From: Empedobacter tilapiae
GTDB lineage: Bacteria; Bacteroidota; Bacteroidia; Flavobacteriales; Weeksellaceae
Length of the DNA stretch: 64,000 nucleotides
Assembly: GCF_004785645.1 (NCBI RefSeq)
Contig: NZ_SRPE01000007.1
Coordinates: forward strand, 124,001 to 188,000
Direction: 5' to 3'
Positions 25,264-27,127 of this stretch are shown piece by piece. Under the pieces are notes generated by a model. The model did no database searches. It had not been told where the DNA came from and saw nothing but the letters and a program-made list of their open reading frames with translations. A program made the position numbers and the translations under genes. Within the stretch, counting starts at the first letter, position 1. Each line of letters starts with the position of its first letter.

Positions 25264-26466
25264 TTAATTCAACTCAAAGAAATCTCGTTTACCAATTTTT
25301 ACTTTGATACCACTATCTAAAATAAAATCACTTAAAGGATCTATATTCTTCTCCCCATTAATCTGTACAGCTCCACTCTCTATTAAACGACGAACTGCAG
25401 TTTTTGATATATCTTTTTTTAATTGATGACAAATATCTAACAATGTAATATTATCATTATCAATGTTTAATGAATCAATCTTAACCGTTTCGAAAACTCT
25501 ATTTTCATCATTTCTTTTCTGAAATTGATTGTTAAAAAATTCTTCCGCATATTCTGCTTCTATTTCAGAATGATATTGAGTAATAATATTTTTAGCAACT
25601 AACTTTTTAATTAACATTGGATTATCCATTTTCAATCGATCATTTAAACTTGACTTTTCTTCTATTGAAAAATCAGTTGCTAAAGCAATATATTCTTCTA
25701 ATAAATCATCTGGAATTGACATTGTTTTTCCAAACATTTCATTAGGTTCATCTGTCAATCCAATAATATTATTCAACGATTTGCTCATCTTCTCTTTTCC
25801 ATCAGTTCCTCTCAAAAGTGGCATACACAGTACAATCTGAGCAGTTTCACCATTGGTTTCTTGCAATTGTCGTCCCATTGTACAATTAAATAATTGATCT
25901 GTTCCTCCCATTTCAATGTCTGCATTTATTTTAACCGAATCGTATGCTTGTAATATTGGGTAAACCAACTCATGCATTGCAATTGGAGTATTTTCTGTAA
26001 AACGCTTATTAAAATCATTTCGATGCATTAATTGTGCAACTGTAACTTTTGACAGTAACTGAATAACCTCCGAAAAAGCCAACTTATCTAACCAATCAGA
26101 ATTAAACACAATTTCCGCTTTTTCTATATCAATAATTTTTGATAATTGATTAATATATGTTTCTGCATTTTTCTGTACTTGATCTGCATTCAGCGGTTGG
26201 CGACTTTTATTTTTTCCTGTAGGATCTCCAATTTGCGCTGTAAAACTACCTACTAAAATAACTATTTGATGCCCCAAATCTTGAAATTCTTTCAATTTCT
26301 TCAACACAACGGCGTGACCAAGATGCAAATCTGGTGCAGTAGGATCAAAACCTAATTTGATTCGTAATGGTCTATTTTCTTTTTTTGTTAATTTTAATTT
26401 TTCTTCCAATCCATTCTCTGGTAAAAAAATAGCTACATTTTCTTTTAAACTTTTTAGATCTTTCAT
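25264..26466 (-). CDS. tyrS: Tyrosyl-tRNA synthetase
   Basis: Class I aminoacyl-tRNA synthetase charging tRNA-Tyr. 400 residues. The HIGH-type motif is HLGH (48-51) in FDPTAPDLHLGH and the KMSKS loop is at 226-230. A C-terminal S4 RNA-binding domain occupies about 335-400. The FDPTAPDLHLGH form is typical of the TyrZ subgroup. Immediately upstream is an intrinsic-terminator hairpin (26479-26509) preceded by a short frame with five Tyr codons, so transcription is probably controlled by attenuation in response to charged tRNA-Tyr. Confidence 0.95.
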   Translation of the reverse strand: MKDLKSLKENVAIFLPENGLEEKLKLTKKENRPLRIKLGFDPTAPDLHLGHAVVLKKLKEFQDLGHQIVILVGSFTAQIGDPTGKNKSRQPLNADQVQKNAETYINQLSKIIDIEKAEIVFNSDWLDKLAFSEVIQLLSKVTVAQLMHRNDFNKRFTENTPIAMHELVYPILQAYDSVKINADIEMGGTDQLFNCTMGRQLQETNGETAQIVLCMPLLRGTDGKEKMSKSLNNIIGLTDEPNEMFGKTMSIPDDLLEEYIALATDFSIEEKSSLNDRLKMDNPMLIKKLVAKNIITQYHSEIEAEYAEEFFNNQFQKRNDENRVFETVKIDSLNIDNDNITLLDICHQLKKDISKTAVRRLIESGAVQINGEKNIDPLSDFILDSGIKVKIGKRDFFELN

Positions 26467-26478
26467 ATTTTTTGAAAA

Positions 26479-26509
26479 TAAAAAAGCCCGAGCAAAACTG
26501 CTCGGGCTT
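26479..26509 (-). terminator. tyrS attenuator hairpin
   Basis: On the minus strand AAGCCCGAGCA and TGCTCGGGCTT form a perfect 11-bp GC-rich stem with a GTTT loop and a T6 run. It ends only about 13 nt before the tyrS ATG, so a terminator here would stop tyrS transcription itself. Its left arm (26509-26499) can pair instead with TGCTCGGG at 26575-26568 inside the leader frame, with TAGA/TCTA extending the helix. Confidence 0.8.
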
Positions 26510-26541
26510 GTAGATTATGATTAAATTTTTGACGTACAAAA

Positions 26542-26637
26542 CTAATACGAAGTATACACATAGTCTACCCGAGCAAATATTGTACGATAATAAGTGCTAA
26601 AAAACGGTAAACGTAATATGTGTTGCAAAAACTTCAT
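26542..26637 (-). CDS. Tyrosine-rich leader peptide for tyrS
   Basis: A 31-codon frame starting at ATG 26637 (MKFLQHIL) and stopping TAG at 26544-26542. Five codons are TAT: residues 16 and 17 (STYYRT) and 26, 28 and 31 (DYVYTSY). 16% Tyr in front of tyrS is the hallmark of a leader peptide whose translation senses tyrosyl-tRNA. The segment encoding Phe-Ala-Arg-Val (21-24) holds the antiterminator strand complementary to the terminator left arm. A possible protective hairpin pairs CACATA (26622-26617) with TATGTG (26562-26557). A TACCTTTG box at 26653-26646 would make the mRNA start almost at the ATG. Confidence 0.75.
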   Translation of the reverse strand: MKFLQHILRLPFFSTYYRTIFARVDYVYTSY

Positions 26638-26645
26638 TTGTAATG

Positions 26646-26653
26646 CAAAGGTA
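26646..26653 (-). promoter_or_regulatory. tyrS leader -7 element
   Basis: TACCTTTG on the minus strand fits TAnnTTTG. The start should fall near 26640, about 3 nt before the leader ATG, giving an almost leaderless leader peptide and a 5' region of about 175 nt for tyrS. Confidence 0.55.
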
Positions 26654-26668
26654 GCATTATTTTTTACT

Positions 26669-27127
26669 TTAAGGATTTTCTTTCCAAATTTTATCTGAAG
26701 TCTCTAAATATAAAGGAAGAGCAGCTGATCCATACCAATTATAAATCTCGAAATCTAATAATTTTGCTTCTACAGCAGGATCAGTTTGTAAAATTTTTTC
26801 CAATTCTTCTTTCGTTTCAATATCTTGGAAAATAAAAATTCCACGATATTTTTTCTCATTTTTTCCCATAGGGCCAGCAACTACTAACTTCTTCTCTTCT
26901 ACTAAACGGTCGATATTTGCCATATGACCTTTGAATTTTTCTGCAATCAAGCTACTATCAGTCGATTGATTTGATCCAGTTTTTAGAATAACAAAAAAAT
27001 ATGATTTCATTCCATATTTATCCGCTTTCAACTCTTTTGCTAAATCTTCATCATAATTTGGATTTGATTTTTGAGCATATGAAATAATAGATATAAATGT
27101 GAAAAATAAGAGAGTATACTTCTTCAT
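26669..27127 (-). CDS. Exported YciI-like protein
   Basis: 152 residues: a signal peptide (MKKYTLLFFTFIS, ending SYAQ) followed by a YciI/YCII-type ferredoxin-like domain. The segments KGHMANIDRLVEEKKLVVAG, RGIFIFQ and TDPAVEAKLLDFEIYNW are typical of the family, although most members are cytoplasmic. YCII domains are of uncertain function; a conserved His (here in KGHMANI) has been suggested as catalytic. The gene lies upstream of tyrS but the tyrS leader promoter separates them. Divergent from ybaK. Confidence 0.75.
   Translation of the reverse strand: MKKYTLLFFTFISIISYAQKSNPNYDEDLAKELKADKYGMKSYFFVILKTGSNQSTDSSLIAEKFKGHMANIDRLVEEKKLVVAGPMGKNEKKYRGIFIFQDIETKEELEKILQTDPAVEAKLLDFEIYNWYGSAALPLYLETSDKIWKENP

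Follow-up and report, generated by a model that had tools for sequence, protein, structure and literature searches.

The whole stretch of DNA analysed here (64,000 nucleotides of the Empedobacter tilapiae genome, the "window") contains a gene for a tyrosyl-tRNA synthetase (TyrRS), preceded by a short tyrosine-containing reading frame, several segments with alternative pairing partners, and an intrinsic terminator whose last T (26480) is separated by 13 nt from the tyrS ATG (26466). The coordinates of these features are summarized in Table 1. A sequence-only reading of the region had named the leader ORF, the terminator, the arms and the TACCTTTG box, and each of them was found in its proposed place. 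The 201-nt region of the window folded at -49.8 kcal/mol, against a mean of -31.1 for shuffled sequences (z -5.0), and none of 200 shuffles equalled this value. A codirectional ORF (window 26669-27127, minus strand), whose presence was variable among relatives, stops 31 nt upstream of the leader ATG, so its transcripts could run on into the leader in the window.

The downstream gene had been read as tyrS. It does encode a TyrRS (TIGR00234), but an auxiliary one, the housekeeping copy being located elsewhere in the genome: this second TyrRS (at C21) also matched TIGR00234, was 27% identical to the window TyrRS and had KFGKS, not KMSKS.

Table 1. Features of the leader region in the window, and leader loci found in genus g74.
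Feature	Position	Strand	Remarks
Promoter box (predicted -7), TACCTTTG	26646..26653	-	predicted +1 at ~26641, 5' UTR of ~4 nt
Leader ORF, 31 codons plus stop, peptide MKFLQHILRLPFFSTYYRTIFARVDYVYTSY	26542..26637	-	Tyr at 16, 17, 26, 28 and 31
Predicted stall codons Tyr16-Tyr17	26592-26587	-	within the leader ORF
Arm 1, CACATA...CGTTTACC, codons 6-11, partner arm 2	26606..26622	-	fold; recoding control
CACATA and TATGTG	26622-26617 and 26562-26557	-	read directly in the sequence
Arm 2, TGCTCGGGTAGACTATGTG, antiterminator 5' arm, alternative partner arm 1	26557..26575	-	covariation, folding
TGCTCGGG	26575-26568	-	inside the leader ORF
Arm 3, CATAATCTAC-AAGCCCGAGCA, antiterminator 3' arm and terminator left arm	26499..26519	-	covariation, folding
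Intrinsic terminator (3:4), 11-bp stem, 4-nt loop, U-run	26480..26509	-	hairpin 26509-26484, T4 to 26480
Auxiliary tyrosyl-tRNA synthetase, 400 aa, KMSKS type	25264..26466	-	TIGR00234, 348 bits
Tyr leader, genus g74	L086:1501-1735	+	covariance-model match
Tyr leader, genus g74	L091:1641-1411	-	covariance-model match
Tyr leader, genus g74	L111:1501-1738	+	covariance-model match

Distribution of the leader and of the auxiliary TyrRS

The window was compared with 80 named Bacteroidota loci (the best 80 of 185 by TyrRS protein search), and a leader ORF, an antiterminator and a terminator were present upstream of the orthologous gene in all 81 sequences. Eighty of these leaders were recognised by script; the leader of L043, which starts with GTG, was recognised by reading, and for this reason L043 is absent from the script-based counts and from the helix, pN/pS, folding and promoter analyses. 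An intrinsic terminator was located upstream of the gene in 80/80 scanned leaders (the weakest, in L071, with a mismatch) and, by eye, in L043. Counts across leaders take related sequences as independent; dereplication at 86% identity left 29 of the 80 leaders, which were used for the covariation, pN/pS, recoding and promoter-shuffle tests and for the training of a covariance model. This model gave one match per source in 81/81 (102-163 bits), 52 of the 81 sources being outside the training set, and also matched 24/24 loci (the window's own included) and 7/7 loci from further family and order genomes, partly of the same species. Conservation among relatives, on which the sequence-only reading depended, was confirmed: the frame, Tyr16-17 and the helices were kept in Flavobacteriia, Sphingobacterium and Rufibacter.

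No full leader was detected in the 600 nt upstream of 17 loci encoding KMSKS TyrRS of ~45% identity, nor upstream of the second TyrRS of the own genome, the ORF finder having started inside the gene in at least three of the KMSKS loci (L157-L159) and picked another ORF in L171. The best score among 41 control sources around other TyrRS genes was 27.5 bits and came from the 3' part of the model. The first housekeeping flanks (~90-155 nt) were too short for a whole leader, and longer stretches (515-529 nt upstream of the second TyrRS, 23 genomes) were therefore used; here the model did not exceed 21.7 bits and no leader was found. The next best match in the own genome, after the leader, was weak (35 bits). 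A run of the model over 296 phylum genomes, which is no census as scoring was limited to 9 candidates per genome, gave matches mostly confined to the 3' part of the model among those listed (30-39 bits). In a leader-profile search of 395 phylum genomes, the three strong matches came from the same three genomes (3/395) that harbour a relative of the window TyrRS at 70% identity or more; six further matches were weak (E 0.001-0.007).

Both TyrRS types were present in 24/24 leader-bearing genomes: the own genome plus each of 23 further genomes selected among the 80 loci. KMSKS was found in 81/81 leader-bearing proteins, and the 24 housekeeping proteins had KFGKS (23) or KFGKT (1). Identity of the KFGKS TyrRS to that of the window genome went from 96-97% in Empedobacter down to 56-57% in Sphingobacterium and Rufibacter, and identity of the leader-bearing TyrRS fell only to 72% (Sphingobacterium) and 69% (Rufibacter). 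Judged by its sequence, the housekeeping KFGKS TyrRS follows taxonomy. The leader-bearing type was found in 24 of 148 family genomes and 15 of 296 order genomes, and the leader accompanied every auxiliary copy examined (81/81, 24/24 and 7/7 loci).

Trees of 24 genes each were built for the auxiliary TyrRS (24 of its 81 genes) and the housekeeping TyrRS. Vaginella and Sphingobacterium were sisters in the auxiliary tree (99/94) and far apart in the housekeeping tree. In the auxiliary tree, Chryseobacterium as a single clade was rejected (p-AU 0.0098), as was a ten-row Weeksellaceae-like group (p-AU 0.0014), these clades being named from taxonomy or from the other tree but chosen after a quick tree had been inspected; support was weak for many of the remaining branches of the auxiliary tree (4/21 starred). 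Neighbouring ORFs at 33 of the 81 loci (~3 kb each side) formed no genus-spanning cluster among the 12 largest, and no plasmid carriage of the leader-bearing type was seen (16 records matched, all below 60% identity). The conflict between the trees indicates horizontal transfer, and the auxiliary TyrRS, sporadic in its spread, has probably moved between lineages.

Across the phylum, TyrRS were split by lineage, with KFGKS in the window's class and KMSKS-like forms in most of the other genomes drawn; genomes with both KFGKS and KMSKS-like TyrRS were rare in this draw.

Leader peptide, alternative helices and ribosome position

The Bacteroidota phylum lacks Shine-Dalgarno sequences. A TA..TTT[AG] box ending 5-9 nt upstream of the leader ATG was found in 29/29 dereplicated loci versus 1.5% of shuffled upstreams, and in 73 of the 80 loci of the fuller set (six had no recognised box, and one had it at 15 nt). 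In Flavobacterium psychrophilum the promoter box lies at -12 to -5 and 5.5% of mRNAs are leaderless (PMC9723704); with this spacing, 5' UTRs of 1-5 nt are predicted across loci. The transcript start had been proposed to lie almost at the leader ATG of the window, and the box at 26653-26646 agrees with this, with the correction that a 5' UTR of 4 nt is predicted. A TTTAAATATTGG element is shared by L007, L010, L013, L015, L050 and other Chryseobacterium loci; it sits ~35 nt 5' of the leader ATG, further upstream than the promoter box, and may represent a -33 element or an operator.

Two consecutive tyrosine codons occupied positions 16-17 in 80/80 leaders upstream of the TyrRS gene. Five Tyr codons had been highlighted in the window: Tyr16 and Tyr17 are conserved but the later ones are unshared, and 10 of the 80 leaders had only two Tyr codons. 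The first 17 codons were aligned free of gaps in the 29 dereplicated leaders; M1, L8, P11, Y16 and Y17 were invariant, and R9 was present in 28/29. Diversity at the three codon positions was 0.15/0.12/0.39 in codons 2-17 versus 0.54/0.56/0.51 in codons 18-27. In these 29 leaders pN/pS was 0.23 for codons 2-15 (bootstrap 0.11-0.39) and 0.10 for codons 7-14 (bootstrap 0.05-0.20); past the Tyr codons it was 1.87 (0.84-15) in the RSG-frame group (12 leaders, pS only 0.089) and 0.79 (0.53-1.60) in the AR-frame group (13 leaders). The contrast in diversity and pN/pS indicates that constraint at the peptide level gives way to constraint at the RNA level just after the Tyr codons. Among the 80 leaders, arm 2 (G[CT]TCGG) was read in frame 0 in 31 and in frame 1 in the other 49.

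The pN/pS over codons 2-15 suggests that the leader is translated. By the same measure these codons, beyond the Tyr codons, are kept as protein, for which the classical attenuation model has no need; amino-acid conservation of the nascent chain ahead of the predicted stall site, the feature looked for in arrest-peptide leaders, was present. As the classical model leaves the conserved leader peptide unexplained, this suggests that the nascent chain takes part in the control. A nascent-peptide arrest comparable to TnaC/ErmCL, in which the chain ILRLPFFS in the tunnel, beyond an empty A site, would cause or sharpen the stall at Tyr16-17, is possible, if rather unlikely. The strength of the protein constraint, in codons 7-14 above all, would be unexpected if the Tyr codons alone mattered, L8, P11 and R9 fall within the chain, and with Tyr16 in the A site ILRLPFFS would occupy residues ~1-8 from the peptidyl-transferase centre; the partial overlap with arm 1, however, adds constraint at the RNA level, and the third-position diversity of codon 7 was only 0.19.

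The terminator helix (3:4) comprised ten pairs, four of them changed on both sides among the 29 leaders. The core of the antiterminator helix (2:3) was paired in 94.1% of cells versus at most 51.2% in slid controls; its pair 69-155 was UA in 15 and CG in 14 of the 29 leaders, the same arm-3 column forming AU (15), GC (12) or GU (2) with arm 4, and the outermost pair, 74-150, was unpaired in 12/29. The proposal that terminator and antiterminator are mutually exclusive is borne out by arm 3, which is common to both and shows covariation on both sides. A protective 1:2 helix, also proposed, was retained for most leaders: the mean of expected pairs was 10.8 versus 5.7 in synonymous recodings (29 leaders, Wilcoxon 2e-7), fewer than 10% of recodings were as high in 20/29 leaders, and the window had 17.3 expected pairs against a recoded mean of 6.2 (0/60 recodings as high). 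The exceptions were L007, L068 and L070, at or below the control, and L010 and L042, not clearly above it.

Arm 2 started at nt 64-68 in 80/80 leaders. The footprint geometry had been left unsettled by the sequence-only reading; with a ribosome mask from P-site -15 to +15, a span assumed from general knowledge of ribosome footprints, a ribosome with Tyr16 or Tyr17 in its A site would have its leading edge (P-site +15) just before arm 2, which is left free. In RNA truncated after arm 3, the probability of 2:3 had a median of 1.00 (10-90%: 0.96-1.00) with the stalled ribosome masked, 0.07 (10-90%: 0.00-0.93) without ribosome, and 0.05 (0.00-0.94) with the ribosome at the stop codon (n=80 in all cases). 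The window departed from these medians, with values of 0.79 without ribosome and 1.00 with the ribosome at the stop codon, and several relatives likewise preferred 2:3; for termination to occur in these leaders, either 1:2 must form beforehand or 3:4 must close rapidly. In the full-length leader, the probability of the terminator was 0.96 in the window (median of the 80 leaders 0.97), and masking at Tyr17 did not lower it (median 0.97 both ways). Because the terminator wins with or without a masked ribosome, the switch would need to operate kinetically, like that of classical attenuators.

The locus thus combines the elements of a classical attenuator, namely an ORF with cognate codons, a terminator, an exclusive antiterminator and a 1:2 protector helix, and the auxiliary TyrRS gene is very probably under ribosome-mediated transcription attenuation. 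Transcription would start, as the box indicates, 1-5 nt before a leader ORF of 24-37 codons. With charged Tyr-tRNA, or with an untranslated leader, arm 2 would be held by arm 1 or passed by the ribosome, and arms 3 and 4 would form the intrinsic terminator just upstream of tyrS. Under scarcity of charged Tyr-tRNA, the ribosome would wait at codons 16-17, over part of arm 1 and ending before arm 2; arm 2 would then be free to pair with arm 3, and RNA polymerase would continue into tyrS. Induction would be expected under tyrosine starvation or in the presence of a TyrRS inhibitor.

A terminator that is constitutively active, behind a translated short ORF that would only damp tyrS and not sense tyrosine, would agree with the terminator being favoured in full-length RNA irrespective of the masked ribosome, but it is quite improbable, as it does not account for Tyr16-17 being invariant, for arms 2, 3 and 4 covarying or for arm 2 being read in two frames. 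Control by a T-box, or by some other riboswitch that binds a tRNA or a metabolite, is scarcely credible, given that the conserved part is a reading frame that is probably translated; the T-box control reported for Bacillus subtilis tyrZ (title of Williams-Wagner 2015) might speak for it. No match at gathering score was found in the window with Rfam. The region gave 20 sub-threshold matches, with Leu_leader (E 0.002) and Trp_leader (E 0.37) among them, each far under its gathering score, but no T-box, and this possibility was rejected.

A similar leader before a tRNA gene, and known systems

Full-length matches of the covariance model (33-46 bits) were also found in genus g74 of family f23 (Table 1); among 60 tRNA-Tyr loci from this family and from the window's relatives, only these three loci were matched. 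The leader peptides (MKQFRINTTPDYGNKYYPILKGRSLSGL, MRQFSKHITLDYGSRYYAKLMGNRLSDW and MKQFGLHINPDFGGTNYYEVSWERSTSGL) had YY at 16-17, 16-17 and 17-18 respectively, and were followed by the same kind of terminator and, a few nt further on, by a tRNA-Tyr gene (anticodon GTA). This arrangement was present in 3/3 g74 genomes examined, each of which had another tRNA-Tyr match elsewhere, the gene preceded by the leader being the second, divergent one. By eye, each g74 leader contained a partial copy of the right arm of the terminator, which makes an antiterminator possible, and the tRNA gene would be controlled by leader-peptide attenuation.

Classical attenuators of the trp/his/phe type in Proteobacteria combine cognate codons, 1:2, 2:3 and 3:4 helices and a terminator before the gene. 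The window leader resembles them in all these respects, and differs in its predicted 5' UTR of 1-5 nt, in being conserved as protein and in having arm 2 inside the ORF. The auxiliary, antibiotic-resistant TrpRS1 of Streptomyces coelicolor is reportedly subject to ribosome-mediated transcription attenuation, to judge from the title of Vecchione and Sello (2010), and is, with B. subtilis tyrZ, the closest system known: like the window gene, it duplicates a synthetase function already present, and its control is of the kind predicted here. Unlike TrpRS1, the present case concerns tyrosine and Bacteroidota, has a short predicted 5' UTR and a conserved leader peptide, and the leader goes with every copy across the transferred lineages. 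For the tyrZ gene of B. subtilis, the title of Williams-Wagner 2015 names a MarR protein and a T box as regulators, whereas the window gene lies behind a leader peptide. Both genes encode a second TyrRS beside the housekeeping one (PMC9437257 for tyrZ). Candidate attenuators upstream of trpS2 and leuS in Streptomyces are described in PMC1262725, where pheST is named among attenuator-controlled genes.

In the same bacterial class as the window, 5' cis-regulatory RNAs have been described for F. psychrophilum: leader-peptide attenuation was inferred for amino-acid operons, and structured 5' UTRs were reported for aminoacyl-tRNA synthetases, with pheA, hisG and alaS elements named (PMC9723704). 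The earlier statement that no equivalent is known in Flavobacteriia was therefore too strong; tyrS has no occurrence in the main text of PMC9723704. In mycobacteria, leaderless polycysteine ORFs are reported to affect the translation of downstream genes (Canestrari 2020, as described in PMC9031893). They are short ORFs in which cognate codons sense an amino acid, as those of the window leader (predicted to be nearly leaderless) would, but they sense cysteine and their described effect is on translation. Within the open-access literature searched, outside of which most subscription papers fall, neither tyrS leader-peptide attenuation in Bacteroidetes nor a TyrRS leader peptide with tyrosine codons was found.

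A joint reading of the TyrRS and tRNA leaders, put forward tentatively and rather unlikely to hold, would be that Bacteroidota carry a portable sensor of Tyr-tRNA charging that switches on spare tyrosine-decoding parts. The (nearly) leaderless ORF, its nascent chain aiding the arrest at Tyr16-17, would move with a second TyrRS that replaces a housekeeping TyrRS inhibited, for example, by a natural product; the similar leader and terminator before a second, divergent tRNA-Tyr elsewhere would mean that even a tRNA gene is attenuated.

To our knowledge, amino-acid-sensing control has barely been described in Bacteroidota. If true, attenuation of the auxiliary TyrRS gene would provide this phylum with a clearly delimited sensor of an amino acid, placed before an accessory synthetase. 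It poses two questions that can be tested, namely whether a (nearly) leaderless ORF can do the work of a classical attenuator and whether starvation stalling is aided by the nascent peptide. An inducible, transferable second TyrRS also hints at the existence of unknown natural inhibitors of the housekeeping TyrRS.
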